A DNA stretch of 64,000 nt from assembly GCA_025356655.1 (NCBI GenBank), contig JANXRW010000013.1, positions 1 through 64,000 on the forward strand. The letters are read 5' to 3'. Position numbers and translations under genes: made by a program. The notes below the pieces were generated by a model. The model saw only the letters and a list, made by a program, of their open reading frames with translations, did no database searches and was not told the DNA's origin. The DNA comes from Betaproteobacteria bacterium. Lineage in GTDB: Bacteria > Pseudomonadota > Gammaproteobacteria > Burkholderiales > SHXO01. Shown piece by piece: positions 3,053-35,199 of the stretch (position 1 is the stretch's first letter; each line of letters begins with the position of its first letter).

Positions 3053-3911
3053 AAGGGGCTCACCTGAAGGAAGGTCCTTGCAACCGGTCGTCAACCCACA
3101 CTGAGGACTGAGATCCGTACGCCGAAAGCATACCGCAGCCCGGGCGCTGCACCGCGCGGCCACCAAGGACGGCGCGCCGCACCGCGAACCAACGCCAACC
3201 CGGTCGCCGTCGACGGCTGGCATTGCAGTGGGTGTCCCACCGTGCCGCGCCGTTGACGCCGCCCACGGAGCAGGCTGGGGCGCAGGTCGATGGCGGTGTC
3301 GCGCGAGCGGAGCTGCCGGCTCTTGCCAAGACGCTTGAGGGGGATCTCCACGCCGCCCGAGATGGTGTCCGCGACGCCGTGTGAGGTCTATTCGCCGGGC
3401 TCCCGCAGGTCCCGGCGTTGACCCACCACTGGCAGGGGTGCGGGCACCACTTCGGGCGGGTCGGAAGCGCCCGGGTGAGGGGCGCCTCTTAGACCCGAAT
3501 CGGCTGATGCACTGCGGGTCTTGGCCAAGGGGCGGCGGCGTCCGCTGAATTGGGCTCGGCATGCTTTACGGGAAAGCCTAGTGTATATTTCAGCGGCGCG
3601 CGTGGCTATCCGCATCGCAGACTGCGGAATCGCGCCCGATTTGTTCTGGCGGTGGCCAACGCCCACCTCCGGTTCACCGCTGAGCGGCCGACCGGCGGAA
3701 CCGGTGCGGAGCACGCAGGCGTCGTGCCGCCGGGCCAGGCTCGACCCAAGCGGTGGCCTCCCCCCTGACACGCTCAGGTGGGTTCAAGTCACGCTCCACC
3801 CGCGGCTAAAGACTGTTCCCTGCAGGTACTCCGCATGAACCACAAAAGCGACCACCCCGACATATCCCACCGCCCCGAGCACCCTGCCCGGCGGCCTGAG
3901 GGCCGACGCCT
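3053..3911. other. Long divergent intergenic region
   Basis: These 859 bp lie between the minus-strand asparagine-synthase-like gene and the start of the plus-strand sugar operon, so they probably hold promoters for both. The open frames on either strand look like GC-rich noise, with no recognisable domain. A TATATT hexamer at 3584-3589 is a conceivable -10, but no convincing -35 sits at 16-18 bp. The only coding candidate is a 28-codon ORF at the far end (3835-3921). Confidence 0.5.
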
Positions 3912-3921
3912 ATGGCGGTGA
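3835..3921 (+). CDS. Possible 28-aa leader ORF overlapping the operon's first gene
   Basis: A short frame begins MNHKSDHPDI... and is rich in His, Arg and Pro. It has an AGG 8 nt before its ATG, and its TGA (3919-3921) overlaps the next gene's ATG at 3912. That next gene has no visible ribosome site of its own, so coupled translation from this leader is conceivable. There is no homology argument and the frame could be chance. Confidence 0.2.
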   Translation: MNHKSDHPDISHRPEHPARRPEGRRLWR

Positions 3922-4601
3922 CCGCCGTGGTGCAGGCGCGGATGTCCTCGGCCCGCCTGCCGGGAAAAGTGCTGCGCGAAGTGGCAGGGCAACCCCTGTT
4001 GGGTTATTTGTTGGATCGGCTCGCCCGGGCGCGTCATTTGGACCGGGTTATCGTGGCCACCTCCTTGGATTCCAGCGATGACGCCGTGGCCCACTGGTGC
4101 GAACGCCACGGCGTGGAATACCACCGTGGCCCACTGACCAACGTGTTAGCTCGCTTCGTCGAGGTGGCACGTTCCCGGGACCTGGAAGCTTTGGCACGGA
4201 TCAGCGGCGACAGCCCGCTGCTCGACCCGGTCGTGGTGGACGCCGTGGTGTCGGCCTTCGAATCGGCGCCCTGCGACATTGCCACCAACGTCTTCCCGCG
4301 CAGCTTTCCGCGGGGTCAGTCTGCGGAGGTGATGCGCCGGGACGCACTGGAGGCGGTGTTGGCCAGCACGACGGATCCAGCGGACCTGGAACATGTGACC
4401 GCGCACTTCTACCGCCACCCGCAGCGCTGGCGCATCGTCAACGTAAGCTGCGCAGCGGACCGATCGGGCGAGCAACTCTCCGTGGATACGCCTGAAGACC
4501 TTGCTGCTTTCGAGCGACTGCGCGCGCAGATGGACCAGGAACCCTGGGCCTATCACATTGACGCCTTATTGGCACTGCGGGATAATGCGCAGTTAACCTG
4601 A
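3912..4601 (+). CDS. SpsF-type cytidylyltransferase
   Basis: This 229-aa protein starts TAVVQARMSSARLPGK, the nucleotide-binding signature of the SpsF/NeuA-like (cytidylyltransferase 3) family, and has an ISGDSPLLDP motif at about 97-106. SpsF-like enzymes are expected to activate a sugar acid as its CMP derivative. The NeuB-like synthase three genes downstream fits that role: this enzyme would make the CMP-donor of the final ulosonic acid. It is the first gene of the long plus-strand operon. No clear Shine-Dalgarno precedes the ATG. NeuA proper has a different motif set, so I give no symbol. Confidence 0.8.
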   Translation: MAVTAVVQARMSSARLPGKVLREVAGQPLLGYLLDRLARARHLDRVIVATSLDSSDDAVAHWCERHGVEYHRGPLTNVLARFVEVARSRDLEALARISGDSPLLDPVVVDAVVSAFESAPCDIATNVFPRSFPRGQSAEVMRRDALEAVLASTTDPADLEHVTAHFYRHPQRWRIVNVSCAADRSGEQLSVDTPEDLAAFERLRAQMDQEPWAYHIDALLALRDNAQLT

Positions 4602-4631
4602 CTGCAGCCTAAAAGCCTAGGCTAACACGCC

Positions 4632-5783
4632 ATGCTCAGAAACCTGCCCTTCGGCGCCCCGATGATCGGGGAAGAAGAACGCGCCGCCGTCATGGACGTC
4701 ATGGCTGGGCCAATCCTCGTCCACGGCCCACGCGCAGTCCAGTTCGAACAGGACTTCGCCCACTTCACGGGCGCACCCCATGCGGTGAGTGTCTCGTCTT
4801 GCACTGCCGGCATGCATCTGGTGTGGTTCACCCTGGGCCTGGGGCCCGGCGACGAGGTGATCGTCCCGGCCCAAACCCACACCGCCACCGCCCACTGCGT
4901 GGAACTCACCGGCGCGCGTGCGGTGTTCGTGGACGCCGACACCCGCACCGGAAACATTGACCTCGATGCCCTGGAGGCAGCCGTTACGCCGCGCACGCGC
5001 GCCATCGCGGTGGTGCACTTCCTCGGCATGCCGGTGGACATGGCCCGCCTGATGGCCATTGCCCGGCGCGCCAACTTGTTCGTGCTGGAGGATTGCGCTC
5101 TGTCCCTGGGCAGCCGCTTCGGTGGAACGCACACGGGCCTGATCGGGGACGTGGGTGTGTTCTCGTTCTATCCGGTCAAGCACATGACCACTGCCGAAGG
5201 CGGGATGGTCATCACTCACGACGGCGACCTCGCGGCGCGACTGCGCCTGCGGAAGGCGTTCGGCGTCGACCGCACCCATGGCGAACGCAAGATCCCCGGC
5301 ACCTACGATGTGGTGGCCCTGGGTTTCAATTACCGCATGAGCGAGATCCACTGTGCCATTGGCATCGCGCAGCTACCCAAGGTCCCAGGGTTCCTCACCC
5401 AGCGCGAGTGCAACTATGGCAGGCTTTCCAAAGGCTTGGAGGGCATTGCGGGGTTGAGCCTGCTGCAATCCACCACGGGTGTCTTCCAGAGTAGCTATTA
5501 CTGCCTGTCCGTGATATTGGACGCCTCACTGGCCACCCGACGCGCGGCGGTCGTGGCCGGACTCAACGCGCGCGGAGTAGGCACAAGCGTCTATTACCCC
5601 CAGCCGGTGCCTCGCATGACTTACTATCAGGAGCGCTACGGCTGGACCGATGGCTCCTTCCCCAACGCGGCACGAATCAGCGATCAATCCATCGCCCTGT
5701 CGGTGGGCCCGCACCTTAGCGAGGACGACATGGACTACACGGCCGCTTCGCTGCGCCAGGTCATCCAGGAGCTCGGCGCTTGA
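4632..5783 (+). CDS. DegT/DnrJ/EryC1/StrS-family sugar aminotransferase
   Basis: This 383-aa protein matches the PLP-dependent sugar aminotransferase family, which installs an amino group on a nucleotide keto-sugar. It has the EDCALSLG segment (153-160) with the PLP-ring Asp154, and FSFYPVKHMTTAEGG (178-191) with Lys183 as the Schiff-base lysine. Length is usual for the family. A small inverted repeat (AGCCTA/TAGGCT, 4606-4623) lies in the 30-bp gap after the cytidylyltransferase, and no strong ribosome site is visible. In this pathway the product is likely an amino sugar precursor that is later acylated or formylated. Confidence 0.9.
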   Translation: MLRNLPFGAPMIGEEERAAVMDVMAGPILVHGPRAVQFEQDFAHFTGAPHAVSVSSCTAGMHLVWFTLGLGPGDEVIVPAQTHTATAHCVELTGARAVFVDADTRTGNIDLDALEAAVTPRTRAIAVVHFLGMPVDMARLMAIARRANLFVLEDCALSLGSRFGGTHTGLIGDVGVFSFYPVKHMTTAEGGMVITHDGDLAARLRLRKAFGVDRTHGERKIPGTYDVVALGFNYRMSEIHCAIGIAQLPKVPGFLTQRECNYGRLSKGLEGIAGLSLLQSTTGVFQSSYYCLSVILDASLATRRAAVVAGLNARGVGTSVYYPQPVPRMTYYQERYGWTDGSFPNAARISDQSIALSVGPHLSEDDMDYTAASLRQVIQELGA

Positions 5784-6829
5784 AACCTATCGATCTGGCA
5801 GGAAAGCGCGTCGCCCTCATCGGCGGCGCTGGCTTCATTGGGCACAACCTTGCACTGAGCCTGGTGCGAGCGGGAGCTGATGTGCACTGCGTGGACGGAC
5901 TTCAGGTCAACAGCCTGGGCGCCTATGCCAGCGCCACCAGCGACCCGGACAAGGAACTCTTTGTCCAGCTGATCAACGAGCGCCTATCCCTGTTGCGCCA
6001 GGAGCGCATTCCGCTGCACGTCATCGACGCCCGTGACTACCATGCACTGTGCCGCTGCCTGGGTGAGATCCGTCCGCAGGTGGTCGTCCAGCTAGCGGCC
6101 GTGGCCCACGCCAACCGCTCGAACAAGGACCCTTTCAGTACATTCGACCACAGCTTCCGAACGCTGGAAAACGCGTTGGACTACTCGCGCGGGAACGTAG
6201 AGCAGTTCATCTACTTCTCCTCCTCCATGGTCTACGGGGACTTCGATGGCGAGGCGGTGAGCGAGGAGCGGCAATGCGAACCGCTGGGAATCTATGGGGC
6301 GCTGAAGTACGGCGGCGAGAAGCTGGTGATCGCATACCGACAGGTGTTCGGCCTCGACTACACGATCGTGCGGCCCTCCGCCCTCTACGGCGAGCGCTGC
6401 GTGAGCCGGCGCGTGGGCCAGGCCTTCATCGAGAACGCGTTGCGCGGCAAGGGATTGACCGTCAACGGTGACGGTACCGATGCCCTGGACTTCACCTATA
6501 TCGGCGATCTGGTGCAGGGTGTCACTCGCTGCATCGGCCTGCCCGAGGCGCGCAACCAGATCTTCAACCTGACCTACGGTGGTGCGCGCACCCTGAACCA
6601 GATGATCGACCTGGTGCGCCGGGGCTTTCCCGGCGTGGACGTACGCTACCAGCCGCGCGACGCGCTCATGCCGGAGCGCGGCACTTTGTCGGTGGAGAAG
6701 GCCCGCCGCCTTCTGGGCTACGAACCGCAGTTCCCCCTCGAACTAGGGTTCCCGCGCTACATCGAGTGGTACCAGGACCTGGCGCGCCGCCATCCGGACT
6801 ACTTCGGCGGCCCGCGGGCCCACGCCTGA
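5780..6829 (+). CDS. NAD-dependent epimerase/dehydratase (extended SDR)
   Basis: This 349-aa extended short-chain dehydrogenase has the dinucleotide motif GGAGFIG (15-21), the catalytic YGALK (172-176) and Ser147-149 region. The TTG start at 5780 overlaps the aminotransferase stop by 4 nt and has AGGAG 8 nt upstream, which supports it over later starts. Family members act as 4,6-dehydratases, 4-epimerases or reductases of nucleotide sugars. It probably acts before or with the adjacent aminotransferase to make the keto or epimerised sugar. The exact reaction cannot be read from the motifs. Confidence 0.85.
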   Translation: MKPIDLAGKRVALIGGAGFIGHNLALSLVRAGADVHCVDGLQVNSLGAYASATSDPDKELFVQLINERLSLLRQERIPLHVIDARDYHALCRCLGEIRPQVVVQLAAVAHANRSNKDPFSTFDHSFRTLENALDYSRGNVEQFIYFSSSMVYGDFDGEAVSEERQCEPLGIYGALKYGGEKLVIAYRQVFGLDYTIVRPSALYGERCVSRRVGQAFIENALRGKGLTVNGDGTDALDFTYIGDLVQGVTRCIGLPEARNQIFNLTYGGARTLNQMIDLVRRGFPGVDVRYQPRDALMPERGTLSVEKARRLLGYEPQFPLELGFPRYIEWYQDLARRHPDYFGGPRAHA

Positions 6830-6844
6830 GGGGAGTAGAGACCC

Positions 6845-7855
6845 TTGCGCCTGTTCGGGAAGGACCTGGACCAGCAGGTTGCGCTCATCGCTGAAGTGGG
6901 CGTGAATCACGAGGGCGACGTGGAAGCTGCGCGCCGAATGATCGACCTGGCCGCGGACGCCGGTGCCGACGCGGTCAAGCTGCAGTCCTATACGCCCTCG
7001 CGCTACGCGTCCGCCTCGGACCCGGCACGCCTGGCGCGAGTAACGCGTTTCAGCTTGGACTCGGCGGCCCAACTCGACTTGGCCCGCCATGCCGCTGCGC
7101 GGGGCATCCCCCTGTTTTCGTCCGCGCTGACCGAGGACGTGGTGCCATTCCTCGCCCAGTGGTGCCCGGCCATCAAGATCGCCAGTGGCGACCTGGACTT
7201 CGAGCCCGTGATCCGTGCTGCGGCCGCCACCGGCAAAGTGGTGATCCTGTCCACCGGGATCGGCACCGTGGCGGAGATCGACCGGGCCGTGGGGTGGTTC
7301 GCCGATGTGGTCGGCGCCGCCGCACTGGCGTCACGGCTGGTGCTGATGCACTGCGTATCCGCATACCCAACGCCGGTCGAGCAGGCGAACGTGCGCAGCG
7401 TGCCCTTCCTGCGCGAGCGCTTTGGCCTAGTAACCGGTTACTCCAACCATGTGATGGAACCGGAGGCGGTCCTCGCAGCGGTCGCGCTTGGCGCCCAGAT
7501 GGTGGAGGTCCACTTCACCGACCGGCGTGAGGGCCGCGAATTCCGTGACCACGCCCTGTCCCTGGAACCAGCGGAACTGGCTGCCCTGCGCGGTTCCATA
7601 GATCGCGTGCGGGCCAGCCTGGGCGCCCACGACAAGCAACCCCAGGCGTGTGAGCTACCGCTGCGGCTTGCCATCCGCAAAGGTCTGGTCGCCGCCCGCG
7701 AGCTGCCCGCCGGTACGCGGATTGCGGCCGGGGATCTGCACTTTGCGCGGCCGGCCACCGAGTTCGCCGCTGGTGAGCTAGGGGCAGTGCAGGGCCGCGA
7801 ACTGCTCCGCCCTTTGCAGGCGGGTGAAACCCTGGTCCGAGACGGCGTGCGCTGA
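6845..7855 (+). CDS. NeuB-type N-acetylneuraminate/nonulosonate synthase with SAF domain
   Basis: This 336-aa protein resembles sialic, legionaminic and pseudaminic acid synthases, which condense phosphoenolpyruvate with a six-carbon amino sugar to give a nine-carbon ulosonic acid. The TIM-barrel part shows AEVGVNHEG near residues 17-25, AVKLQSY, IASGDL and TGYSNHVMEPEA with a metal-binding His. The last 60 residues form the antifreeze-like SAF domain (LVAARELPAGTRIAAGDL). The TTG start at 6845 has GAGGGGAG at 6828-6835. It sits between the epimerase and a formyltransferase. No PseG- or NeuC-type enzyme, which normally releases the free sugar substrate, is present in the window. Confidence 0.88.
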   Translation: MRLFGKDLDQQVALIAEVGVNHEGDVEAARRMIDLAADAGADAVKLQSYTPSRYASASDPARLARVTRFSLDSAAQLDLARHAAARGIPLFSSALTEDVVPFLAQWCPAIKIASGDLDFEPVIRAAAATGKVVILSTGIGTVAEIDRAVGWFADVVGAAALASRLVLMHCVSAYPTPVEQANVRSVPFLRERFGLVTGYSNHVMEPEAVLAAVALGAQMVEVHFTDRREGREFRDHALSLEPAELAALRGSIDRVRASLGAHDKQPQACELPLRLAIRKGLVAARELPAGTRIAAGDLHFARPATEFAAGELGAVQGRELLRPLQAGETLVRDGVR

Positions 7856-7859
7856 GGCC

Positions 7860-8573
7860 GTGCGCGTCGCCGTCCTGACCACGCAGACACCGCACCATGC
7901 TTGGTTCGTGCGCGAACTCGCGCGCGAGGTGGGTGCGCTGCATGTGCTCATCGAGCGCGAGGGGGTGCGCGCTCCCTTCGACACCGGTCATCCGTTCGAA
8001 ACCACGCGTGATCAGGACGAGTGCACCGCGTGGTTCAGCGGCCACAACCCGACCCTGGAGGAATTCGCCCCGTGCAGCGCTTGTGGCAACATCAATGACC
8101 CGGCAGCCGCCGCCGTGCTCCGGGACATGGCCCCCGATCTGGTGCTGGTGTTCGGCACGCGGAAACTGCTGCCTCCGGTGATCGCCGCCGCGGGCCCGCT
8201 CGTGCTCAATCTGCACGGCGGAGACCCTGAGTATTACCGCGGCCTCGACAGCCACCTGTGGGCCATCTACCACCACGACTTCGCGAACCTCGTCACGACG
8301 CTGCACCACCTCACCGAGGGCCTCGACCAGGGCGCGATCGTGGGCACCAGGCCAGTGCCCCTGTCCCGCGGCCTGAAACTGCATCAACTGCGCCGCGTGA
8401 ACACGGAAACAGCGCTTTGCCTCACTCTGCACGCCGTACGGGAGTACCGCGAGCGCGGTAGCCTGCCGGCACGGCCGCAGCGCTGCGCCGGGCGGTACTA
8501 CTCCTTTATGCCCGCCGTGCTCAAGGAACTGTGCGTGGCACGGCTTGAACGCCATACCGAGAGCCTTCCATGA
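7860..8573 (+). CDS. Formyltransferase-family protein (sugar N-formyltransferase candidate)
   Basis: This protein has the Fmt/PurN fold and would transfer formyl from N10-formyltetrahydrofolate to an amine. The Asn-His-Asp triad is visible as N117 and H119 (VLNLHGGDPEYYRG) and D156 (EGLDQGAI), numbered from GTG 7860. That start gives 237 aa and follows the synthase stop by 4 nt. Another GTG at 7824 would add 12 residues and overlap the synthase. There is no C-terminal tRNA-binding domain, and the neighbours are sugar genes, so a nucleotide-sugar or ulosonate amine is the likely target. A paired C-x2-C (PCSAC, 71-75) is unusual. The next gene starts in a 4-nt overlap. Confidence 0.78.
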   Translation: MRVAVLTTQTPHHAWFVRELAREVGALHVLIEREGVRAPFDTGHPFETTRDQDECTAWFSGHNPTLEEFAPCSACGNINDPAAAAVLRDMAPDLVLVFGTRKLLPPVIAAAGPLVLNLHGGDPEYYRGLDSHLWAIYHHDFANLVTTLHHLTEGLDQGAIVGTRPVPLSRGLKLHQLRRVNTETALCLTLHAVREYRERGSLPARPQRCAGRYYSFMPAVLKELCVARLERHTESLP

Positions 8574-9475
8574 ATGCCTACGCACAACGCCTTGGTGAAG
8601 ACACCCTTGCCATCTTCCTGTTCCACGGCGTGACGCGACCGCACGGTTGCGCCGTGCGCAACTACACGCGCAAGCACATCGAGCCCGACTTCTTCGCCTC
8701 CATCCTGCGCGCACTCAAGGCCGCCGGGGGGCGGCCTGTGAGCATGCAGGAGGTGCTCGATCACGTCGATAGCGGCACCGCCCTTCCGCCGCGTGCCTTT
8801 GCCATCACTTTCGACGACGGGTTCCACAACAACCTGGACGTGGCGGCCCCCATCCTCGCTGAGGAGGGCATTCCGGCGACCTTCTATGTGACCACCGACT
8901 TCGTGGACCGCAACCGGATGGGCTGGATCGACCGCATCGAGTTTGCGGTCGAACAGCACCCCACTGGTTGCCTGCGGCTGCCGTGGGGCGATTGGGAATT
9001 CAGCGGCGACGCGGCACGGCGGGCCCTGCTCAGCGATATCCGGACCCGGGTCAAGAGCGACGCCGGCGTCGATGCCGACGCCCTGGCCACTGCGATCCAG
9101 GTGCAACTCGGCCTGGAGCCCACGTTCTCCAGCGATCACCTGCTCGACCGCAAACTCAACTGGGAAGATGTTGGACGGCTCGCCGCCGGCCCCGGCTTCA
9201 TCGTCGCGGGGCACTCCCACACCCACCGGATCCTCGAATACCTGGATGATGAGAGCCTGGAGGCGGAGATCGCGACCAGTATCGAACTGCTGGCGCAGCA
9301 GGCCGGCATTCGAAGCCCTCACTACAGTTACCCGGAGGGCCAGCCTTACTGTTACTCGAACCGGGTAATCGACGTCCTTGCGCACCATGGCGTACGCTGC
9401 AGCCCGAGTGCCATCGACGGCATCAATGCCGCAGGCACCTCGCCATTTCACCTGCGGCGGGTCATGGTGACATGA
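8570..9475 (+). CDS. NodB-type polysaccharide deacetylase-family protein (cytoplasmic)
   Basis: This 301-aa protein has NodB motif 1 TFDDG (80-84), a LFHGV motif (17-21) and a His-rich HSHTH (215-219) in place of the usual HxxxH metal motif. There is no signal peptide, so it should act in the cytoplasm. It overlaps the formyltransferase by 4 nt. That pairing suggests de-N-acetylation of a sugar intermediate to expose an amine for formylation, but this is inference. Cell-wall or polysaccharide deacetylases are normally exported, so the missing leader argues for a small-molecule substrate. Confidence 0.75.
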   Translation: MNAYAQRLGEDTLAIFLFHGVTRPHGCAVRNYTRKHIEPDFFASILRALKAAGGRPVSMQEVLDHVDSGTALPPRAFAITFDDGFHNNLDVAAPILAEEGIPATFYVTTDFVDRNRMGWIDRIEFAVEQHPTGCLRLPWGDWEFSGDAARRALLSDIRTRVKSDAGVDADALATAIQVQLGLEPTFSSDHLLDRKLNWEDVGRLAAGPGFIVAGHSHTHRILEYLDDESLEAEIATSIELLAQQAGIRSPHYSYPEGQPYCYSNRVIDVLAHHGVRCSPSAIDGINAAGTSPFHLRRVMVT

Positions 9476-10503
9476 TCACCCAGGCCGCCCCCCTGCGCGC
9501 TGGTGTCATCGGCTTGGGCGTGGGCGAGAAGTTGGCCGAAGCCGTGCGTGCACACCCGCATGCCGAGTTGCGCACGCTGTGTGACTTCGACCCGGCCAAG
9601 CGGGCAGAAGTGTCGACGCGGTTTCCCGGTGTGCCCGTCGTCGCAGACGCAGACGCGGTGCTCGAGGATCCCGCCATCGATCTGGTCTGTATCGCCAGCC
9701 ACGACAACTTTCATAGCGCGCAGACCTTACGTGCCCTGGCGGCCGGCAAGCATGTGTTCGTGGAAAAACCCTTCGTCCTCGACGAAGCCGAGGCCATTCA
9801 GGTACGCGACGCCCTGTTGCAGCGTCCTGGCCTGCGCCTGTCCTCGAACCTGATCCTCCGCCGCTGCCCGAGGTTCCTTGACCTCCGCCGGCGCATCCGG
9901 GCGGGCGAACTCGGACGGCTTTTTCACCTGGAAGGCGATTACAACTACGGGCGGCTACACAAAATCCTGGAGGGCTGGCGCGGCCGTATGGCGAACTACT
10001 CGGCGGTCCATGGCGGCGGCGTCCACATGGCCGATCTACTCATGTGGCTGTCGGGCGAGCGCGTGCTGGAAGTCACGGCCTGGGGCAATGCCATCGCTAG
10101 CGCGGGCTCCGGATTTCGCAACTTGGATCTAGTAATGGCCCTGCTGCGTTTCGAGCACGGTGCAGTAGGCAAGCTGGGGGTGAACTTCGGCTGTGTATAC
10201 CCTCATTTCCACAAGCTCGAGCTCTACGGAACAGAAGGCACCTTCAGCAACCGCCGGGAACATGCCCTGCTCTACCGATCGCGCGACCCGGCGCAGTTGC
10301 CGGAGCAGCTCACGGGGGCCTACCCGGGGACCCACAAGGGCGAACTTCTGGCCAACTTCATCGACAGTCTGCACGGCCTGGCCAGTCCTGACGTGAGCGA
10401 GGCTGATGTATTCGACAGCCTCAGCGTCTGTCTGGCGATCGAGCGCAGTGTGCACACGGGGCAGCCGGTGCGCGTGGACTACCTCTGGGAGGGACGTCCA
10501 TGA
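9472..10503 (+). CDS. Gfo/Idh/MocA-family NAD(P)-dependent oxidoreductase
   Basis: This 343-aa protein has an N-terminal Rossmann motif (GVIGLGVGEKLAEAV) and the family's VEKPF motif, where Lys is catalytic. The C-terminal half matches the substrate-binding sheet of sugar oxidoreductases. Members oxidise or reduce sugar hydroxyls, including UDP-sugar C3 in acetamido-uronate pathways and PtmF in Campylobacter legionaminate synthesis. It shares a 4-nt overlap with both neighbours, which ties it to the same pathway. The exact substrate is unknown. Confidence 0.85.
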   Translation: MITQAAPLRAGVIGLGVGEKLAEAVRAHPHAELRTLCDFDPAKRAEVSTRFPGVPVVADADAVLEDPAIDLVCIASHDNFHSAQTLRALAAGKHVFVEKPFVLDEAEAIQVRDALLQRPGLRLSSNLILRRCPRFLDLRRRIRAGELGRLFHLEGDYNYGRLHKILEGWRGRMANYSAVHGGGVHMADLLMWLSGERVLEVTAWGNAIASAGSGFRNLDLVMALLRFEHGAVGKLGVNFGCVYPHFHKLELYGTEGTFSNRREHALLYRSRDPAQLPEQLTGAYPGTHKGELLANFIDSLHGLASPDVSEADVFDSLSVCLAIERSVHTGQPVRVDYLWEGRP

Positions 10504-11207
10504 TCCACAGCACCCCCGACAATTGGCTGGCCGCAATCCTTGGCCACCCGGCGTGGCGCGTCTCCGGGGAGGTCGCACCGGGCGACCCGGAGACCCTGCG
10601 CGCACTCACGGCGCAGTCCGCCTTTCTCTACGCGCGCCTGCCCACGACAAGCGTTGCGTCGGTGCAGAGCTACGAGGACGCGGGCTTCCGCTTGGTCGAC
10701 GTCACCATCACCCTCGAGACCGGCCTGTTGCCGGTGGACGATGCGCCCGCCCTGACCGTCGGCTTCGCCCGACCCGAAGACGCAGCGGCCTTGGTGCAAC
10801 TGGCGGGTGAGGGTTTTGACCGCTCCCGCTTTCACCTGGACCCGCGTATCCCGGCCCAACTGGCCAGCACCATCAAGGAGCGCTGGGTAGCCAACTACTT
10901 CACGGGTGGCCGCGGCACGCACATGGTGGTGGGCCGCGATGCGCAGGGCCCGGTGAGCTTCCTACAATTGCTGGCCGACCCCGCTGGCGTGCTCACCATC
11001 GACCTCATCGCCGTGGCCTCCCGGGCCAGACGCCAGGGCTTCGGGCGCGCCATGATCGCCTTCGCGGCCCGCACCTGCCCGGGCGTGCACCGGTTGCGCG
11101 TGGGAACGCAAGCAGCCAACGGGGAGTCCCTGCGCTTCTATGGACAGTTGGGGTTCCAGGTGGTGGACTCGGCCTACGTGCTGCATTGCCATGGCCCGGT
11201 AGCCTAG
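10500..11207 (+). CDS. GNAT-family N-acetyltransferase
   Basis: This 235-aa protein shows the acetyl-CoA-binding GNAT core near its C-terminus (LTIDLIAVASRARRQGFGRAM, then VGTQAANGESLRFYGQLGF). The size and the extra N-terminal domain resemble WecD-type sugar N-acetyltransferases. It probably acetylates the amine made by the DegT aminotransferase. The start overlaps the oxidoreductase stop by 4 nt. Protein substrates cannot be excluded from sequence alone. Confidence 0.8.
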   Translation: MIHSTPDNWLAAILGHPAWRVSGEVAPGDPETLRALTAQSAFLYARLPTTSVASVQSYEDAGFRLVDVTITLETGLLPVDDAPALTVGFARPEDAAALVQLAGEGFDRSRFHLDPRIPAQLASTIKERWVANYFTGGRGTHMVVGRDAQGPVSFLQLLADPAGVLTIDLIAVASRARRQGFGRAMIAFAARTCPGVHRLRVGTQAANGESLRFYGQLGFQVVDSAYVLHCHGPVA

Positions 11208-11225
11208 ACAAGGAGACAGATACCG

Positions 11226-13052
11226 ATGTGCGGCATCGCAGGATTCATCGGCCACCGCGAGATCCTCGAGGACGCCGTGCGGGCGTGTCTCCAACGCATG
11301 CAGCGGCGCGGCCCGGACGCCTGTGGCGCACAGCGCTTTCGCACCCCCGACGGACGCCAAGTGCTGCTGCTGCACACGCGGCTGTCCATCATCGACCTCG
11401 ACCCGCGCGCCAACCAGCCCTATCGCTGGGGCGAGCACTGGATGGCTTTCAACGGCGAACTCTACAACTACCTGGAACTGGCGCAGCAATTGCAGGGCGA
11501 TGCCCCCCTGCAGACGCGCTCCGACACCGAGGTCTTCGTGCGTCTGCTGGCCCGTCAGGGGCTCGCGGCCCTCGATCAGGCCGAGGGCATGTGGGCCTTC
11601 GCCCTCTACGACGGGGCCGACGGCAGTCTGGTGCTATGCCGCGATCGTTTCGGCGAGAAGCCGCTGTACCTGTTGCGCACGCCCGAGGGCGTCTACTTCG
11701 GCTCCGAGCCGAAGTTCGTATTCGCCCTGCTGGGTCGGACTCTGCCGCCCAATACCGAGCAGTTGCGCCGCTATCTGGTCAATGGCTACAAATCGCTCTA
11801 CAAGACCCGGGACACTTTTTTCGTGGGGCTGGAGGAACTGGAACCGGCCCACTGCCTGCGCATCAGCCCCGAGGGCGTGGGCACCCCCACGCGCTACTGG
11901 ACGCCGGCGTATGCCCCGCAGGCGGACATGAGCTACGACGAGGCCGTGCGGGGCGCCCGGACGCGGCTGGAGCGCTCACTCGAACTGCGCCTACGCAGCG
12001 ATGTGCCGCTGGCCTTCTTGATGAGCGGCGGGGTGGACTCTAACGCCCTCATCAGCATCGCCCACCGGGTGTTCGGTCACGACGTGCACGGTTTCACCAT
12101 CCTCAACCAGGATGCACGTTATGACGAGCGGGCCATCGTGGAAGAGGCCGTGGCGGAGTACGGCATCCGGCACACGGGCGTCGGCATGGGCACCGAGGAC
12201 TTCCTCGACCGGCTGCGCGCACTGGTGGCCTACCACGATGCCCCCGTGTCCACCATTACGTATTACGTGCAGTGGCTGCTGATGCGACATATCCAGGACG
12301 CCGGCTACAAGATCTCCATCAGCGGGACGGGCGCCGACGAGATGTTCACGGGCTACTACGACCACCACCTGCTGCACCTCGCCGAGATCCACGGCACGCC
12401 CGCTCATGCCCCGACGCTAGAGGCCTGGCAGACCCACATCCAGCCTCTAGTGCGCAATCCGTTTCTGCGGGACCCCGATCTGTTCGTGCGCGACCGCAGC
12501 TTCCGAGACCACATCTACCTGGGCAACGAGGGCTTCGCGCAGTACCTCACCCAACCCTTCCAGGAAGCCTTTGAGGAAGCACAGTATGCGGAGTCGCTAC
12601 TGCGCAACCGAATGCTTAACGAGATGTTCCACGAGGCGGTGCGCGTGATCCTGCATGAGGACGACCTCAATGCCATGTATTACTCCATCGAGAACCGGTC
12701 GCCATTCCTCGACCGCGAGTTGTTCGAGTTCTGCTACCGCATCCCGAACCCGCACCTCATCCGGGACGGCTTCAACAAGGCGGTTCTGCGCGATGCCGTG
12801 CGCGATCTGGCGCCGGGCTGTGTCATCGGCAAGCGCGAGAAGGTTGGCTTCAACGCCCCGGTAGAAGCTTTTTTGGATCTCGATGACCCGAACGTCCGGG
12901 CCACGCTGCTGGCCGAGAGCCCCGTGTTTGATATAATCCGTCGTGACCGAATCGAGGGTCTTCTCGCGTCTCGCGGGCTCCCGAACAGCGAGAGCAAATT
13001 TTTGTTCTATTTCGTTAATACAAAACTTTTTTTGGAACAACTACTAACTTGA
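11226..13052 (+). CDS. Asparagine-synthase-like glutamine amidotransferase of the sugar operon
   Basis: This 608-aa protein begins MCGIAG with Cys2 as glutaminase nucleophile, then RRGPDACG (27-34) and FNGELYN (75-81). The synthetase PP-loop SGGVDS is at 267-272. The loop usually written SGDGGDE reads SGTGADE (366-372). A GGAGA ribosome site is near 11212. It follows the acetyltransferase within the operon, and WbpS-like proteins of this family are implicated in making carboxamides of sugar acids in O-antigens. It is therefore a good candidate to amidate an ulosonic or uronic carboxylate. The last 20 codons are AT-rich and contain a TATAAT (12932-12937), which may mark a module boundary. Confidence 0.82.
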   Translation: MCGIAGFIGHREILEDAVRACLQRMQRRGPDACGAQRFRTPDGRQVLLLHTRLSIIDLDPRANQPYRWGEHWMAFNGELYNYLELAQQLQGDAPLQTRSDTEVFVRLLARQGLAALDQAEGMWAFALYDGADGSLVLCRDRFGEKPLYLLRTPEGVYFGSEPKFVFALLGRTLPPNTEQLRRYLVNGYKSLYKTRDTFFVGLEELEPAHCLRISPEGVGTPTRYWTPAYAPQADMSYDEAVRGARTRLERSLELRLRSDVPLAFLMSGGVDSNALISIAHRVFGHDVHGFTILNQDARYDERAIVEEAVAEYGIRHTGVGMGTEDFLDRLRALVAYHDAPVSTITYYVQWLLMRHIQDAGYKISISGTGADEMFTGYYDHHLLHLAEIHGTPAHAPTLEAWQTHIQPLVRNPFLRDPDLFVRDRSFRDHIYLGNEGFAQYLTQPFQEAFEEAQYAESLLRNRMLNEMFHEAVRVILHEDDLNAMYYSIENRSPFLDRELFEFCYRIPNPHLIRDGFNKAVLRDAVRDLAPGCVIGKREKVGFNAPVEAFLDLDDPNVRATLLAESPVFDIIRRDRIEGLLASRGLPNSESKFLFYFVNTKLFLEQLLT

Positions 13053-13130
13053 AGGGCGCCGGGGTCTGTCGGCGAGGCAGTGGCACGATTACGCGCACGA
13101 TCTGTTGATGTAGGCTGATGAGGGTAACCG

Positions 13131-13745
13131 GTGAAAGTCGTAGTGGTGGACTATGGGCTGGGAAACCTTCGATCCGTGGCGGGCGCCGTGGAGCGGCTTG
13201 GCGCACAGACCACCGTCTCTTCGGACCCCACAACAATCCAGGACGCTGACCGGTTGATCCTCCCCGGCGTGGGTGCATTCGCGGATGGTATGGCAAACCT
13301 CCGTGCGCGAGGGCTTGTCGACGCCTTGCAGGAGGCCGCCCGTGGGAAGGGCCGCCCCGTTCTGGGCATCTGCCTTGGCGCACAACTGATGGCTCGTGAA
13401 AGCGAGGAATTCGGGCTACATCCCGGCCTGGGCTGGCTGGATGCTCGCGTGGTTCGACTCGCGCCGGTGGATCAGTCTCTGCGCATCCCCCATGTCGGCT
13501 GGAATGACGTCTCCGCAAAGGCGGGGAGCGTCCTGTTCCAAGATGTGCCGGAGCGTTCATTGTTCTACTTCGTTCACAGCTTTCACATCGATGGGATGGG
13601 TATCGACAGGGCGGCAATGTGTGACTATGGCCAGCCCTTCACCGCCGCTTTTGAAGCAGATAACCTGTACGGGACACAGTTTCACCCAGAGAAGAGCCAA
13701 TTGCAGGGACTTCAGGTGCTGCGCAACTTCCTCGAACGGACTTGA
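13131..13745 (+). CDS. hisH2: HisH2-type glutaminase subunit for sugar amidine formation
   Basis: This 204-aa class I glutamine amidotransferase resembles HisH. The triad is intact: Cys81 in GICLGAQ, His185 and Glu187 in FHPEKSQ. It starts at GTG 13131 behind a GAGGGT ribosome site. It is not with histidine genes. It is followed 3 nt later by a HisF-like gene and then an N-acetyl-sugar amidotransferase, the trio known from Pseudomonas O-antigen loci. Its job would be to release ammonia from glutamine for conversion of an N-acyl group to an amidine. Confidence 0.88.
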   Translation: MKVVVVDYGLGNLRSVAGAVERLGAQTTVSSDPTTIQDADRLILPGVGAFADGMANLRARGLVDALQEAARGKGRPVLGICLGAQLMARESEEFGLHPGLGWLDARVVRLAPVDQSLRIPHVGWNDVSAKAGSVLFQDVPERSLFYFVHSFHIDGMGIDRAAMCDYGQPFTAAFEADNLYGTQFHPEKSQLQGLQVLRNFLERT

Positions 13746-13748
13746 GCC

Positions 13749-14498
13749 GTGCTACGCAAGCGTCTGATAACGGTGCTGACCCTCAACGATGGGGTACTGT
13801 TCCGAACCCGGAACTTCCAGCCGGACTATCGGTACACCGCCAATTTCGTTGACGCCTGGTCAGTGGACGAATTGGTGGCCCTCGACATCACGCGCCCTGG
13901 CGAGGGTAGCCGTGAGCACTTTCATAGGGCTATTGCGGAACTCTCCCGCCAGTGTTTTGTCCCGTTGGCCGCAGGTGGCGGTGTCCGCAGCGTGGATGAT
14001 TTTCACGCACTCCTGGGCATGGGCGCCGACAAGGTCGTGATCAACACCGGCGCAGTGGAAAACCCCGGCCTGATCACTGAGGCCGCCCGCCTTTTTGGGA
14101 CCCAGTGCGTGGTGCTCTCGGTGGATGCACGACGCAGAACGGACGGAACATACGAGGTATACACACACTTTGGCTCCCACCCCACCGGTCTCACCCCTGA
14201 AGCCTGGGCTCGCCGCGCGGAAGACCTCGGCGCCGGGGAAATCATGATCACGTCCATCGACCGTGATGGCACACTGGAAGGCTACGACAACGACCTCAAT
14301 CGACAGGTTGCCGACTCTGTGAGGATCCCGGCGCTTGTCTGCGGTGGCGCGGGAAGATGGAAGGACTTCGTGGACGGATTTGAGCTAGGCCACGCTGCCG
14401 CTGTCTGCACGACCAACATCTATCACTTTACCGAAACAAGCGTTCGCAGCGCAAAAATGTTCCTGCACGATGCAGGCATCTCTATTCGGGAGAGTTAG
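13749..14498 (+). CDS. hisF2: AglZ/HisF2-family acetamidino-modification protein
   Basis: This 249-aa (beta-alpha)8 protein aligns along its length with HisF. Asp11, essential for imidazole-glycerol-phosphate synthesis, is replaced by Thr11 (RLITVLTLNDG against the usual CLDVKDG). The second catalytic Asp is kept as Asp126 (VLSVDARR). Loss of Asp11 is known in the HisF2 group that works with WbpG-type amidotransferases, so this protein probably passes ammonia from HisH2 without cyclase activity. GTG start at 13749; the next gene follows after 2 nt. Confidence 0.87.
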   Translation: MLRKRLITVLTLNDGVLFRTRNFQPDYRYTANFVDAWSVDELVALDITRPGEGSREHFHRAIAELSRQCFVPLAAGGGVRSVDDFHALLGMGADKVVINTGAVENPGLITEAARLFGTQCVVLSVDARRRTDGTYEVYTHFGSHPTGLTPEAWARRAEDLGAGEIMITSIDRDGTLEGYDNDLNRQVADSVRIPALVCGGAGRWKDFVDGFELGHAAAVCTTNIYHFTETSVRSAKMFLHDAGISIRES

Positions 14499-14500
14499 GA

Positions 14501-15646
14501 GTGACGTTCCTGAGTCCAGCTTCAGCCGGCGGGCGCCGGATTGCCTACTGCACACACTGCATCATGCCGAACACCCGCCCGCGCGTTCAATTTGATGCCG
14601 CAGGGGTATGCAACGCCTGTCGAAACGGGGAGGAGAAGGCGGTAATCGACTGGGAGGCCCGACGTGCGGAGTTCGTGGAACTTGTCTCCCAGCAGAAATC
14701 GGTCTCCGGGGGCTGGGATTGCGTCGTCCCCTGGAGCGGAGGCAAGGACAGCAGTTCGATCGCCTACCGGCTCAAATTCACGTACGGCCTTAACCCACTG
14801 TTGGTCACTTTCTCGCCCATGATCCCCAATGAGGTCGCGGAGAAGAACCGCGAGCTGATGATACAAGAAGGCTTCGATCATTTGCTTGTCCGCGCGAACC
14901 AGAAAGTACACCGACAACTAGCGCGCCGCTTCTTCATCGAGCGTGGAAACCCCAAAGTGGCCTGGGATGCGGGCGTCAACTCGATCCCGATGCAGGTCGC
15001 CGTCAACTACCGGATTCCACTGGTGTTCTACGCGGAGCATGGCGAGAGCGAATACGGCGGTCGGGTGCTCAGCGAGGAGTCGCGCAAACGGCGGGATTTC
15101 ACGGAAGTCATTGAGCACCAAATCGGCGATGACCCCAGGAACTGGACCGGGGACGGCGTAAAAGCAGCGGACCTTAACCCTTACCTCTACCCCGATCTCG
15201 GTGACCTCGCGAGGCTGAGTGTGACGGCATATTACTTCGCCTATTTCCACCGATGGAGCATGCTGGAGAATTATCAGTTCCTGAAGGAAAAAATTCCGTT
15301 CCAGACGCACCCCGGTGGCCGGACGAGCGGTACCTTCACCGACTTCGACAGCCTCGATGACAAGATGGACAACCTGTATTACTACATGCAGTTCATCAAG
15401 TTCGGGTTCGGTCGTACGGTGCGCGACGCTTGCCGCATGATCCAGAACGATCAGATGACCCGTGACGAGGGCTTGGATCTGGCCCGCCGCTACGACGGCG
15501 AATTCCCCGAGGAATTTCTGGACGACGTCCTGGAGTACCTCAGGCTCACCCGCGACGAATTCACCCAGGTAGTGGACAAGCACCGCAACGCCGAAGTTTG
15601 GGATCGCTCGGACGGTCAATGGGTGCTGCGGCATCCGCTGTGCTAG
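14501..15646 (+). CDS. N-acetyl-sugar amidotransferase (WbpG/PseA family)
   Basis: This 381-aa ATP-pyrophosphatase-type enzyme has an N-terminal four-cysteine cluster (C17, C20, C37, C40) and the PP-loop SGGKDS (79-84). Family members adenylate an N-acetyl group on a sugar and use ammonia to make an acetamidino group, with examples in P. aeruginosa O-antigens and Campylobacter pseudaminic acid. The preceding HisH2 and HisF2 supply the ammonia. GTG start at 14501. The substrate is likely the sugar acid made upstream. Because a formyltransferase is also present, an N-formyl group is a second possible target. Confidence 0.88.
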   Translation: MTFLSPASAGGRRIAYCTHCIMPNTRPRVQFDAAGVCNACRNGEEKAVIDWEARRAEFVELVSQQKSVSGGWDCVVPWSGGKDSSSIAYRLKFTYGLNPLLVTFSPMIPNEVAEKNRELMIQEGFDHLLVRANQKVHRQLARRFFIERGNPKVAWDAGVNSIPMQVAVNYRIPLVFYAEHGESEYGGRVLSEESRKRRDFTEVIEHQIGDDPRNWTGDGVKAADLNPYLYPDLGDLARLSVTAYYFAYFHRWSMLENYQFLKEKIPFQTHPGGRTSGTFTDFDSLDDKMDNLYYYMQFIKFGFGRTVRDACRMIQNDQMTRDEGLDLARRYDGEFPEEFLDDVLEYLRLTRDEFTQVVDKHRNAEVWDRSDGQWVLRHPLC

Positions 15647-15668: not shown

Positions 15669-17432
15669 ATGAAAATCCTCTTCTTTGCTCCGCACTCAGC
15701 CCTCTGGAAGCACGCCTTTCCGGAGGCCGTGGTTGCGGAAGCATTGCAGAAGCGGGGCCACGAACTCGTCTTCGCGACCTGTGGCGAACTCTTCAATCGC
15801 GGGTGTATTCCCATGAATGCCGAGGGGATCTCGCACCGGGCAGCGTCCGAGACGCGGGCCCAGGTGTGCTCGCGCTGCAAGACCAAGGCGTCGCTCCTTC
15901 GCCGGGAACTCCGCCTTACGGGGCCCGACCTAGCGACCCTGGTGGACGCGGCTGCGCGCGCGGAAGTCTCCGCCGCAATGGCGCGCGTGACGCGCGAGAG
16001 CTTCCTCAACTTCGAGCACGAGGGCGTCGCCGTGGGACGGTATGCCCTGTACCAACTACTGCTGCGGAGAAAGCGGATCTCCTTGGAGTTCGACCCCGTT
16101 GAGTGGGAAGAATACCTCGCTGACCTGGAGGTCACGCTGCTAGCCTTAGTGGCCGCCCGCGCGCTGCTTTTGGCGGAGTGCCCGGATCGGCTTGTCCTCT
16201 ACAACGGACTGTATTCGGTCAACCGGGCGGTGAGCCGACTTGCGGAACAACGCGGCGTGCCATCCTACTTCCTCCATGCCGGCGGCAACCTCTCGGAGCG
16301 GCTGCAGTCCTTGATGCTCGCCCGCGACAATACCTATCCCTTCATGCAGGCCATGGTGGCTGCTTGGCCCCGGTTCCGGGATCGGCCCTGTTCGCCCGCA
16401 TCCTTGCAACGCATCGGCAACCACTTCCTCGAGCTGTTCCAGGGGCGCAGCGTCTTCGTCTACTCGACGGGCGCCGTGACCGGAGCGCCGGGCATCCGGG
16501 AGCGTTTCGGCCTGCAGCCCGCACAGAAGCTTCTGGTGGCCACGTTGAGCAGCTACGACGAGGAGTTTGCCGCGGAGCAGGTCGGCGCCAGGGTCCCCGT
16601 GGAGAACCTACTCTTTGCCCGCCAAGCGGACTGGGTGGCGGCGCTCATCGAAATATTACGGACCCGTCCCGAATGGTTCCTGTTGATCCGGGTACATCCG
16701 CGCGAGTTCCCGAACAAGCGCGACTCGGTGAAGTCGGAGCACGCTGCCCTTCTGGAGGGGTTGTTCCGGACCTTGCCCGCCAACGTGGCGGTGAACTGGC
16801 CTGACGACCGCATCTCCATGTACGCCCTGGCGGAAGAGACGGACGTTTTCCTGAACTCCTGGTCCAGCGTGGGTAAGGAGATGAGCGCGCTCGGCCTGCC
16901 CGTGGTGATGTATACCGATGCAATCGCCTTCTATCCCGCAGACCTGAACTACCTAGGCACCACCCAGGAAGAGTATGTGCGCCAGATCGACCTCGCACTG
17001 AGCACCGGATGGAGCCTTGAGCATGCGCGCAAAGTATTCCGGTGGCTCGCGGTGGAATACGAATACGCCCTGCTGGACATCAGCGATGCCTACACGGAGC
17101 GCGAAGGCGCCCGCGCCTCGCTTCTGTCCCGTGCGTTTGCCAAGGTGCGCAGGCGGCTCGACCCCCTGTACCGGGAGCGCCGCGATTGCAATCGGCGGGC
17201 GACGGCGCTCAAGGACGGGCCATTGGCGGAAATGACCTTGGCCCGAGCCAGTTCCTCGGTCCTGGAAACAAGGACGCTGACCCCGCAAACGGCCAATGCG
17301 GAGGCCTTGGAAACCGAGCATCTCATCCGGCAATTGCTGATCTTACGGGCCACACTCTACGGGGACGCCCGCCCGGCGTCATCGAAAACGCTCAACGGCA
17401 GGCTGGCCCAGTTGGCGCAAGCGCGCCTATGA
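15669..17432 (+). CDS. GT-B-like surface-polysaccharide glycosyltransferase candidate
   Basis: This 587-aa protein opens MKILFFAPHSALWKHAFPEA, typical of a GT-B N-terminal domain. It has an SRC-type pair of cysteines (C67, C70) and a second-domain stretch with LLIRVHPREF and DVFLNSWSSVGKEMSALGLPVV. That region resembles the donor-binding half of capsule-type (Kdo transferase-like) glycosyltransferases. The C-terminal 100 residues are basic and helical. It directly follows the amidine trio, so it may transfer the finished CMP-sugar acid. I do not recognise a specific family. Confidence 0.6.
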   Translation: MKILFFAPHSALWKHAFPEAVVAEALQKRGHELVFATCGELFNRGCIPMNAEGISHRAASETRAQVCSRCKTKASLLRRELRLTGPDLATLVDAAARAEVSAAMARVTRESFLNFEHEGVAVGRYALYQLLLRRKRISLEFDPVEWEEYLADLEVTLLALVAARALLLAECPDRLVLYNGLYSVNRAVSRLAEQRGVPSYFLHAGGNLSERLQSLMLARDNTYPFMQAMVAAWPRFRDRPCSPASLQRIGNHFLELFQGRSVFVYSTGAVTGAPGIRERFGLQPAQKLLVATLSSYDEEFAAEQVGARVPVENLLFARQADWVAALIEILRTRPEWFLLIRVHPREFPNKRDSVKSEHAALLEGLFRTLPANVAVNWPDDRISMYALAEETDVFLNSWSSVGKEMSALGLPVVMYTDAIAFYPADLNYLGTTQEEYVRQIDLALSTGWSLEHARKVFRWLAVEYEYALLDISDAYTEREGARASLLSRAFAKVRRRLDPLYRERRDCNRRATALKDGPLAEMTLARASSSVLETRTLTPQTANAEALETEHLIRQLLILRATLYGDARPASSKTLNGRLAQLAQARL

Positions 17433-18714: not shown

Positions 18715-18724
18715 AAGGATCCGT

Positions 18725-19537: not shown

Positions 19538-19545
19538 TTTAACCT

Positions 19546-25474: not shown

Positions 25475-25493
25475 TGTTGCGGGGGAATCTCAG

Positions 25494-27580: not shown

Positions 27581-27606
27581 GGCGCGCTGCCCCTCCTTCG
27601 ATACCC

Positions 27607-30512: not shown

Positions 30513-30651
30513 TTATCCGTGCCCTTTGCGGTTCCCTCGCCGCGCGCCGGGGCGCCCCCGGGGGCGGTGCGGGTCCCGATTCTATCCGCCCTCCGGGCGG
30601 GGCACAATTGCGCGCAGGCACGGGTCGGCGCGGAGGCGGAAAAGGAACCCG

Positions 30652-35195: not shown

Positions 35196-35199
35196 GCCC

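Follow-up and report, generated by a model that had tools for sequence, protein, structure and literature searches.

Which sugar does a run of twelve apparent sugar-acid genes make, and how does its NeuB-type synthase obtain its substrate? To our knowledge, nonulosonate routes start from a six-carbon sugar that is freed or supplied by NeuC/LegG, PseG or a NanE/AGE-type epimerase, and no PseG- or NeuC-like ORF is found in the window, i.e., the whole 64-kb stretch of DNA that was analysed here. The twelve ORFs extend from 3912 to 15646, all open, intact and on the + strand (Table 1). The ORF check and profile searches agree with the positions and families listed in a sequence-only reading of this DNA, all twelve proteins falling into named families, with HisF2 below the TIGR03572 cut-off. 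The many 4-nt overlaps mentioned in that reading are found at four joints (DegT/SDR, FMT/NodB, NodB/Gfo, and Gfo/GNAT). NeuB and FMT overlap by 32 nt, the start of FMT being uncertain, and the remaining gaps measure 2-30 nt, except for the 78 nt between AsnB and HisH2. A promoter and terminator scan gave no more than expected by chance. The cassette is surrounded by surface-glycan genes.

Table 1. Positions of the cassette genes, the SDR signature and the adjoining gene in the window. Numbers of loci refer to the best 80 of 391 relatives; bits are profile scores.
Feature	Position	Strand	Evidence
SpsF-type cytidylyltransferase, core, predicted CMP activation	3912..4601	+	PF02348 5.7e-27, 95 bits; 65/80 loci
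DegT/PseC/ArnB-type sugar aminotransferase, core	4632..5783	+	PF01041 3.6e-105; 74/80 loci
Extended SDR, C4-epimerase/oxidoreductase type, core, most conserved member	5780..6829	+	PF01370 8.7e-40
SDR signature S147-S-S-M-V-Y-G153, at the acidic-residue site of 4,6-dehydratases	6218..6238	+	M150 in 80/81 sequences
NeuB-type synthase with C-terminal SAF domain, core, predicted PEP condensation	6845..7855	+	PF03102 8.2e-58; PF08666 5.5e-9
Sugar N-formyltransferase (FMT), optional, start uncertain	7824..8573	+	PF00551 6.1e-8; PDB matches ArnA, PseJ
NodB-type deacetylase, no evident signal peptide, optional FMT partner	8570..9475	+	PF01522 1.2e-17
Gfo/Idh/MocA oxidoreductase, core	9472..10503	+	PF01408 1.2e-20; 72/80 loci
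WecD-like GNAT N-acetyltransferase, core	10500..11207	+	PF00583 2.6e-9; 67/80 loci
AsnB-like glutamine amidotransferase/synthase, core	11226..13052	+	TIGR01536 342.6 bits, cut-off 267.1; 66/80 loci
HisH2 glutaminase, optional	13131..13745	+	TIGR01855 222 bits, cut-off 105.4
HisF2/WbuZ-like, predicted ammonia-channelling partner, optional	13749..14498	+	TIGR03572 234 bits, below cut-off 299.7
WbuX/WbpG-type N-acetyl sugar amidotransferase, core, HisHF-linked subtype	14501..15646	+	TIGR03573 319 bits, cut-off 203.2
Gene 13, candidate glycosyltransferase for the sugar, adjoins cassette	15669..17432	+	no Pfam/NCBIfam family

A homologue scan of 84,980 species genomes, anchored on the SDR, gave 391 relatives, and the loci of the best 80 of these were compared. 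These 80 loci span 17 phyla, one archaeon included, and an eight-gene core recurs among them, its commonest order, SpsF-Gfo-DegT-SDR-GNAT-NeuB-AsnB-WbuX, being found exactly in 20. Within the same set, FMT and NodB occur as a pair in 11 loci, NodB never without FMT, and HisH2 and HisF2 occur in five, always together and within the cassette run. As for a shared order in other genomes, that of the eight-gene core recurs, whereas all twelve genes are met in one other contig, from Desulfobacterales, in a different order. The twelve-gene module proposed earlier is thus real as a run but not as a fixed unit: the natural unit is the eight-gene core with two optional two-gene insertions. Because the same genes recur as a single run in 17 phyla, the cassette is far beyond chance, and a fortuitous run of unrelated glycan genes is ruled out by the conserved order.

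The combination, in one conserved cassette, of amino-sugar genes, a cytidylyltransferase and a NeuB-SAF protein with a complete active site (E17, K45, K111, H202, H223, and R302) gives good support to the predicted CMP-activated ulosonic acid; the motif residues are kept in 70 or more of 72 sequences. The NeuB of the window keeps the SAF-domain Arg, which we take to be the residue contacting the N-acyl group in meningococcal NeuB. It scores 238 bits against the NeuB equivalog model TIGR03569, below the cut-off of 399.65, and 188 bits against the PseI model (cut-off 340), so it is not a PseI orthologue; its best PDB relative is 6ncs, deposited as N-acetylneuraminic acid synthetase. In a quick tree search, with a reference set that leaves aside biochemically characterised NeuBs, animal NANS and the Lewis class, 71 cassette NeuBs form a single clade (SH-aLRT 99) apart from the NeuC-linked and PseG-linked NeuBs. 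For the carrier genomes, NeuB phylogeny alone would be an unsafe guide to the sugar type.

The SDR, 66-74% identical across three distant loci, has WbpP, WbgU, and GalE as PDB relatives and reaches 66 bits with the LegB model (cut-off 475); its catalytic S148, Y172, and K176 are invariant in the 81-sequence comparison. DegT reaches 295 bits with the PseC model TIGR03588 (cut-off 423.5), and its best PDB match is a perosamine synthetase. GNAT is likewise below the WecD cut-off (69 bits, cut-off 219). In the optional pair, the N-H-D triad of the formyltransferase (N129, H131, and D168) is invariant in 13 of 13 sequences, and the TFDDG and HxHxH motifs of NodB are retained.

The enzyme that usually releases the sugar is missing from the cassettes. 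A gene resembling a hydrolase or 2-epimerase lies within about 1.5 kb of 15 of 18 ordinary NeuB genes, in contrast to only 5 of 80 cassettes with a hydrolase-like gene within 10 kb and none with such a gene inside. Fusion of a hydrolase into a cassette protein was also considered, and the profile searches gave no extra domain. The absence of a PseG or NeuC hydrolase, already remarked in the window, extends to the whole assemblies of six cassette genomes, in which no PF02350 protein (the NeuC/LegG type), PseG, AGE or over-cut-off NanE was found; these are drafts and include the isolate Methylocystis sp. B8, two MAGs 97 and 94% complete, and the window's own genome, 68.6% complete. The searches covered the known families, so a hydrolase of another family would escape them. 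No PseG above the cut-off is present in any of 14 cassette genomes, and PseG is wholly absent from the six that lack PF02350. The cassette SDR carries M150 within the SSSMVYG motif (80 of 81 sequences) instead of the acidic residues of dehydratases, so the usual first step of the legionaminic (Leg) and pseudaminic (Pse) acid pathways is also absent from the cassette.

We therefore favour, with a probability of roughly two in three, the view that the cassette encodes one version of a separate class of CMP-nonulosonate-type pathway, spread by horizontal transfer and independent of the known enzymes for releasing the sugar. Since some carriers have no member of any known supply-enzyme family, a fundamental step in the synthesis of sialic-acid-type sugars may proceed by a route outside these families.

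An ordinary Leg- or Pse-like pathway, whose dehydratase and hydrolase would be encoded elsewhere and shared with other pathways, is an unlikely alternative. It would account for the DegT, acetyltransferase, synthase, and cytidylyltransferase types shared with the canonical pathways and for the PF02350 protein carried elsewhere by 21 of 27 cassette genomes, a family-level count in which the NeuC/LegG type is not distinguished. A distant 4,6-dehydratase is possible, because all six hydrolase-negative genomes have SDRs matching PF02719; a crude motif search places a dehydratase near the cassette in only 6 of 80 loci, so that proximity is not the rule. Nevertheless, the six carriers without any known release enzyme, the contrast with ordinary NeuB loci and the position of the cassette NeuBs outside the NeuC- and PseG-linked clades argue against it.

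In a still less likely reading, SDR, Gfo, DegT, and GNAT would act late, tailoring the nonulosonate itself after NeuB and SpsF have produced a simple CMP-ulosonic acid. Oxidoreductases acting on finished nonulosonates have a precedent in EpaA (a cytidylyltransferase with an aldo-keto reductase) and EpaB (a short-chain dehydrogenase), which convert Pse into its 8-epimer (PMC12053666), and the PDB matches include a DegT-related Kdo8N aminotransferase, 5k8b. However, NeuB would in that case also depend on NeuC, NanE or AGE for its free hexose, and the six carriers lack these; moreover, the PDB relatives of SDR and DegT act mostly on nucleotide-linked hexoses. It is very unlikely that NeuB condenses PEP with a different aldehyde to give another ulosonic acid, e.g., an eight-carbon, Kdo-like one, given its membership of the NeuB/PseI families with the SAF-domain Arg and its surface-glycan neighbours, even if the partner enzymes usual in nine-carbon routes are absent and the best-scoring NCBIfam models of SpsF are those of KdsB, far below their cut-offs.

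In the favoured pathway, without known release enzymes, all reactions, their order and the product are predictions from the sequences. The SDR, as an enzyme of the C4-oxidoreductase type, would act together with the Gfo dehydrogenase and DegT transaminase to convert an N-acetylhexosamine, most likely nucleotide-linked, to a diamino sugar, whose new amine would be acetylated by GNAT. The sugar would then be freed by some enzyme other than NeuC/LegG or PseG. From this free sugar and PEP, NeuB would form a 2-keto-3-deoxy acid, to be activated by SpsF as the CMP donor. WbuX might turn an acetamido into an acetamidino group, with ammonia from HisH2/HisF2 in the window's genome, AsnB might amidate a carboxylate, and the NodB-formyltransferase pair might exchange an N-acetyl for an N-formyl group. 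Judging from gene content alone, the product may bear the amidine, formyl, and carboxamide groups suggested earlier. Tentatively, Gfo, by a GH4/GH109-like sequence of oxidation, elimination, and re-addition of water, or the SDR might replace the hydrolysing 2-epimerase in at least 17 phyla, although we consider this doubtful. The catalytic K99 and H185 are intact in Gfo, its predicted structure (pLDDT 96) has generic sugar and inositol dehydrogenases as Foldseek neighbours, and no GH109 entry is among the sequence or Foldseek matches listed. If Gfo or the SDR does take over this step, the pathway would yield a novel sialic-acid-like sugar that keeps the C9-OH and has its charge offset in part by amide and amidine groups, the window's variant also bearing N-formyl.

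Known systems share parts of this gene set. The CMP-legionaminic acid pathways of C. jejuni (Leg), Halorubrum PV6, and B. subtilis (Sps) have DegT, acetyltransferase, NeuB-type synthase, and cytidylyltransferase in common with the cassette, and the Halorubrum cluster has a formyltransferase gene, as in the window. Nevertheless, these pathways have LegB/SpsM as 4,6-dehydratase and release the sugar with LegG or, in B. subtilis, SpsG; the cassette lacks both kinds of enzyme and adds Gfo, the epimerase-type SDR, AsnB, and WbuX. In comparison with the CMP-pseudaminic pathway (PseB-C-H-G-I-F), the cassette DegT is nearest to PseC in NCBIfam, below its cut-off, and PseJ of the formyl variant is a PDB relative of the formyltransferase, whereas the SDR has no PseB motif, PseG is missing and NeuB is outside the PseG-linked clade. 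The ManNAc suppliers of the Neu5Ac route are missing from the six carrier assemblies, which have neither PF02350 nor AGE proteins and no NanE over its cut-off.

The three families of the P. aeruginosa WbpG-HisH2-HisF2 acetamidino module are adjacent in the window (13131-15646), but here within a NeuB cassette and with a HisF2 below the WbuZ and AglZ/HisF2 cut-offs, and in most cassettes HisH/HisF are absent and WbuX is of another subtype. Indeed, the WbuX of the window is 63-65% identical to that of four of the five HisHF loci, compared to 27-38% for 47 others. NeuB also occurs with HisF/HisH in the LPS locus of Legionella pneumophila, which makes an acetamidino-type legionaminic acid by a route expected to use NeuC/LegG; the likeness to the window is drawn at the level of gene types. 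The match of the window NeuB to 6ncs recalls the 'animal-like' nonulosonate synthases (Lewis et al. 2009), described as a class without biochemical data (quoted in PMC8053191); the cassette may reveal the product of this class. In Shewanella oneidensis, sfmABCDE includes a NeuB-like SfmA and has a nonulosonate-like product, with no clear PseG orthologue in the genome (PMC3765264). Apart from NeuB, these genes (TPP enzyme, reductase, methyltransferase, ATP-grasp) include no cassette gene type, and PseB and PseC homologues are encoded elsewhere in that genome (PMC3765264).

A literature search, with most subscription journals outside its reach, found no described pathway with this gene set, in agreement with the sequence-only reading. 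The cassette looks like one version of a widespread, apparently undescribed pathway to a surface sugar that is rich in nitrogen and resembles sialic acid. Its presence in 17 phyla, together with carriers lacking the known enzymes, points to a novel release step and probably a novel sugar. It thus offers a genomic handle on the sialic-acid-like sugars of environmental microbes, and named isolates among the carriers (Methylocystis sp. B8, Afipia birgiae, and Azospirillum brasilense) make the pathway experimentally approachable.

We also observe carriers among Nitrospira, methanotrophs, SAR11, cyanobacteria, and Burkholderiales. A plasmid search with the SDR gave a single record, Azospirillum brasilense p5, and a search of viral contigs with the window NeuB gave no relative. 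Pairwise-identity correlations among the cassette proteins are all positive, weak for WbuX, and give no clue to the order of steps. Gene 13 has a poor predicted structure (pLDDT 51), and its homologues adjoin the cassette or a different NeuB cluster in three Nitrospira and two further genomes.

All twelve genes of the run are open and lie where the sequence-only reading had placed them, and profile searches with Pfam and NCBIfam returned the families it had assigned; overlaps or short gaps occur at most joints, in line with the tight packing described there. The catalytic motifs of NeuB, SDR, the formyltransferase (FMT), NodB and Gfo are intact, and the 64-kb window indeed holds no NeuC- or PseG-like ORF. 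The interpretation of the genes as a route to a CMP-activated nonulosonate-type acid is supported. No NeuB other than that of the cassette was found in the assembly (3.81 Mb, the window being contig 22), whose estimated completeness is 68.6%.

The run is one form of a modular, multi-phylum cassette, made of eight core genes and two optional pairs, FMT/NodB and HisH/HisF. SDR served as the anchor of the locus search because it is the most conserved member, with copies in two distant loci 66-74% identical to that of the window. Its relatives are encoded on 391 stretches among 84,980 species genomes scanned; the locus counts rest on the best 80 of these, a gene being counted as present around SDR when the match reached at least 50% of full length. 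These 80 loci represent 17 named phyla, one of them archaeal, and contain DegT (74/80), Gfo (72/80), NeuB (71/80), GNAT (67/80), AsnB (66/80), SpsF (65/80) and WbuX (52/80). All eight core genes form a single run in 43 of the 80 loci, or 38 of 59 when those truncated by a contig or locus end are left out, and 20 loci have the exact order SpsF-Gfo-DegT-SDR-GNAT-NeuB-AsnB-WbuX. As for the twelve-gene order, whose recurrence in other genomes had been proposed as a check, all twelve genes are found in a Desulfobacterales locus (L065), but in a different arrangement. In the plasmid-borne copy of Azospirillum brasilense, SpsF, Gfo and DegT are each broken into two overlapping frames, a sign of errors in sequencing or else of decay.

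A tree of 96 NeuB sequences, obtained by a quick search without bootstrap or biochemically characterised references, groups the 71 NeuBs of the cassettes in a single clade (SH-aLRT 99) that excludes the NeuC-linked and PseG-linked NeuBs. The order SpsF-DegT-SDR-NeuB-FMT-NodB-Gfo-GNAT-AsnB is common to the window and four Nitrospira loci (L030, L036, L038, L040), with whose NeuBs the window NeuB nests in an 11-row subclade (SH-aLRT 100), which suggests transfer of the cassette between phyla. Five loci (L055, L069, L074, L101, L104) have a second NeuB within ~10 kb. These group not with the cassette clade but with NeuBs that are NeuC-linked, PseG-linked or unassigned, suggesting that two nonulosonate-like pathways may adjoin there; two tree rows labelled as cassette members only on the basis of distance (L101 at 6053, L104 at 3932) are such second NeuBs. 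PMC8053191 refers to a biochemically uncharacterised synthase class termed "animal-like".

A PF02350-like (NeuC/LegG-type) or PseG-like ORF lies within ~1.5 kb of NeuB in 15 of 18 other NeuB loci from the same taxonomic order as the window. Such an ORF occurs within 10 kb of the cassette in 5 of the 80 loci and inside it in none. The neighbourhood of L069 includes a second NeuB of the NeuC-linked type, so the hydrolase there probably belongs to another pathway. Genome-level profile searches found no PF02350 in 6 of 27 cassette genomes, namely those of the window (68.6% complete), its order-mate G005 (97%), G096 (94%), the isolate Methylocystis sp. B8, and loci L037 and L076; neither PseG nor the epimerase AGE was found in these six, and NanE gave no match over the cut-off. 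The PF02350 proteins encoded in the other 21 may be ordinary non-hydrolysing epimerases. The cassette route presumably includes a novel sugar-release step.

We propose that SDR, Gfo and DegT would build an amino sugar, which GNAT would acetylate and a further step would free ahead of NeuB; NeuB would then add PEP and SpsF CMP, with decoration by WbuX, AsnB and NodB/FMT. Among the PDB matches of DegT, 4-aminotransferases score higher (perosamine synthetase 210 bits, ArnB ~205-210), against 145 bits for the 3-aminotransferase WbpE, which weakly favors action at what will be C7 of the nonulosonate. The candidate we put forward for the release step is Gfo, by oxidation-elimination, the mechanism of GH4 and GH109. 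Its model is of high confidence (pLDDT 96), but the structural neighbors are sugar and inositol dehydrogenases of generic type, Bordetella WlbA appearing lower in the list, so the idea is no more than a hypothesis of low probability. SDR has the motif SSSMVYG, with M150 in 80 of 81 sequences, at the site where an acidic residue is found in 4,6-dehydratases and UDP-xylose synthases; among PDB structures, its best relatives are for the most part C4-epimerase-like. SDRs matching PF02719 are present in all six PF02350-negative genomes, so a 4,6-dehydratase could possibly be encoded away from the cassette. If the pathway has no 6-deoxygenation step, its product would retain the C9-OH.

Like the cassette, the Leg and Pse pathways have DegT, an acetyltransferase, a synthase and a cytidylyltransferase, but unlike it they include a dehydratase as well as an enzyme for release (PMC6137143, PMC7439481). 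N-formyl nonulosonates have a precedent in 5-N-formyl-legionaminic acid of Halorubrum. PseJ, a formyltransferase precedent, is among the PDB matches of the window FMT. Acetamidino groups are made by WbpG-HisH2-HisF2, and the window HisH2, HisF2 and WbuX match the families of this module in profile searches. Given both precedents, the decorations are not new in kind; the novelty is the core. A literature search of incomplete coverage found no published description of the gene set.

Among the best 80 loci, 11 carry both FMT and NodB, one (L068) has FMT without NodB, and no locus has NodB without FMT. HisH and HisF are paired in 5. The WbuX of four of these shares 63-65% identity with the window copy and that of the fifth 32%, versus 27-38% in the 47 other loci with WbuX, indicating two main WbuX subtypes. 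These pairings are the best argument that FMT would formylate the amine exposed by NodB and that HisHF would feed the window-type WbuX, roles otherwise drawn from family knowledge. A small protein with the motif GFYATPSLN (~125-140 aa) is found in 32 of the 80 loci, usually directly 3' of a HisHF-less WbuX; neither the window nor any of the five HisH+HisF loci has it. The protein has no Pfam match, and its L030 copy no NCBIfam match; in many loci a methyltransferase gene comes next.

Locations of the cassette and neighboring features
Feature	Position	Strand	Description
Twelve-gene run	window 3912-15646	+	SpsF-DegT-SDR-NeuB-FMT-NodB-Gfo-GNAT-AsnB-HisH2-HisF2-WbuX
Second AsnB-like protein	window 1082-3562	-	divergent from cassette
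587-aa protein	window 15669-17432		directly 3' of cassette; no known family; candidate glycosyltransferase
Putative glycan genes	window 17686-36081		PhyH-like oxygenase, several methyltransferases, hexapeptide acyltransferase, ABC transporter, acyltransferase-SGNH protein, glycosyltransferases
Plasmid-borne core cassette	L142:5959-14751		Azospirillum brasilense MTCC4039, plasmid p5
GFYATPSLN protein	L030:18474-18851		
GFYATPSLN protein	L035:15791-16189		
Sulfur-related genes of G005	L022:2332-7493		PAPS reductase-domain, APS-kinase and sulfotransferase genes, 3' of cassette

The 587-aa protein has homologues (39-50%) close to the cassette in G005 and in three Nitrospira; a further one adjoins a different NeuB cluster in the genome G026. 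The structure model of the window protein is of poor quality. The genes further 3' make up a large surface-glycan locus. The second AsnB-like protein is nearer to the XrtA/PEP-CTERM amidotransferase model (514 bits, under the cut-off), and its ORF has ~170 residues upstream of the likely MCGIAG start. In G005, the genes 3' of the cassette hint at sulfation of the glycan.
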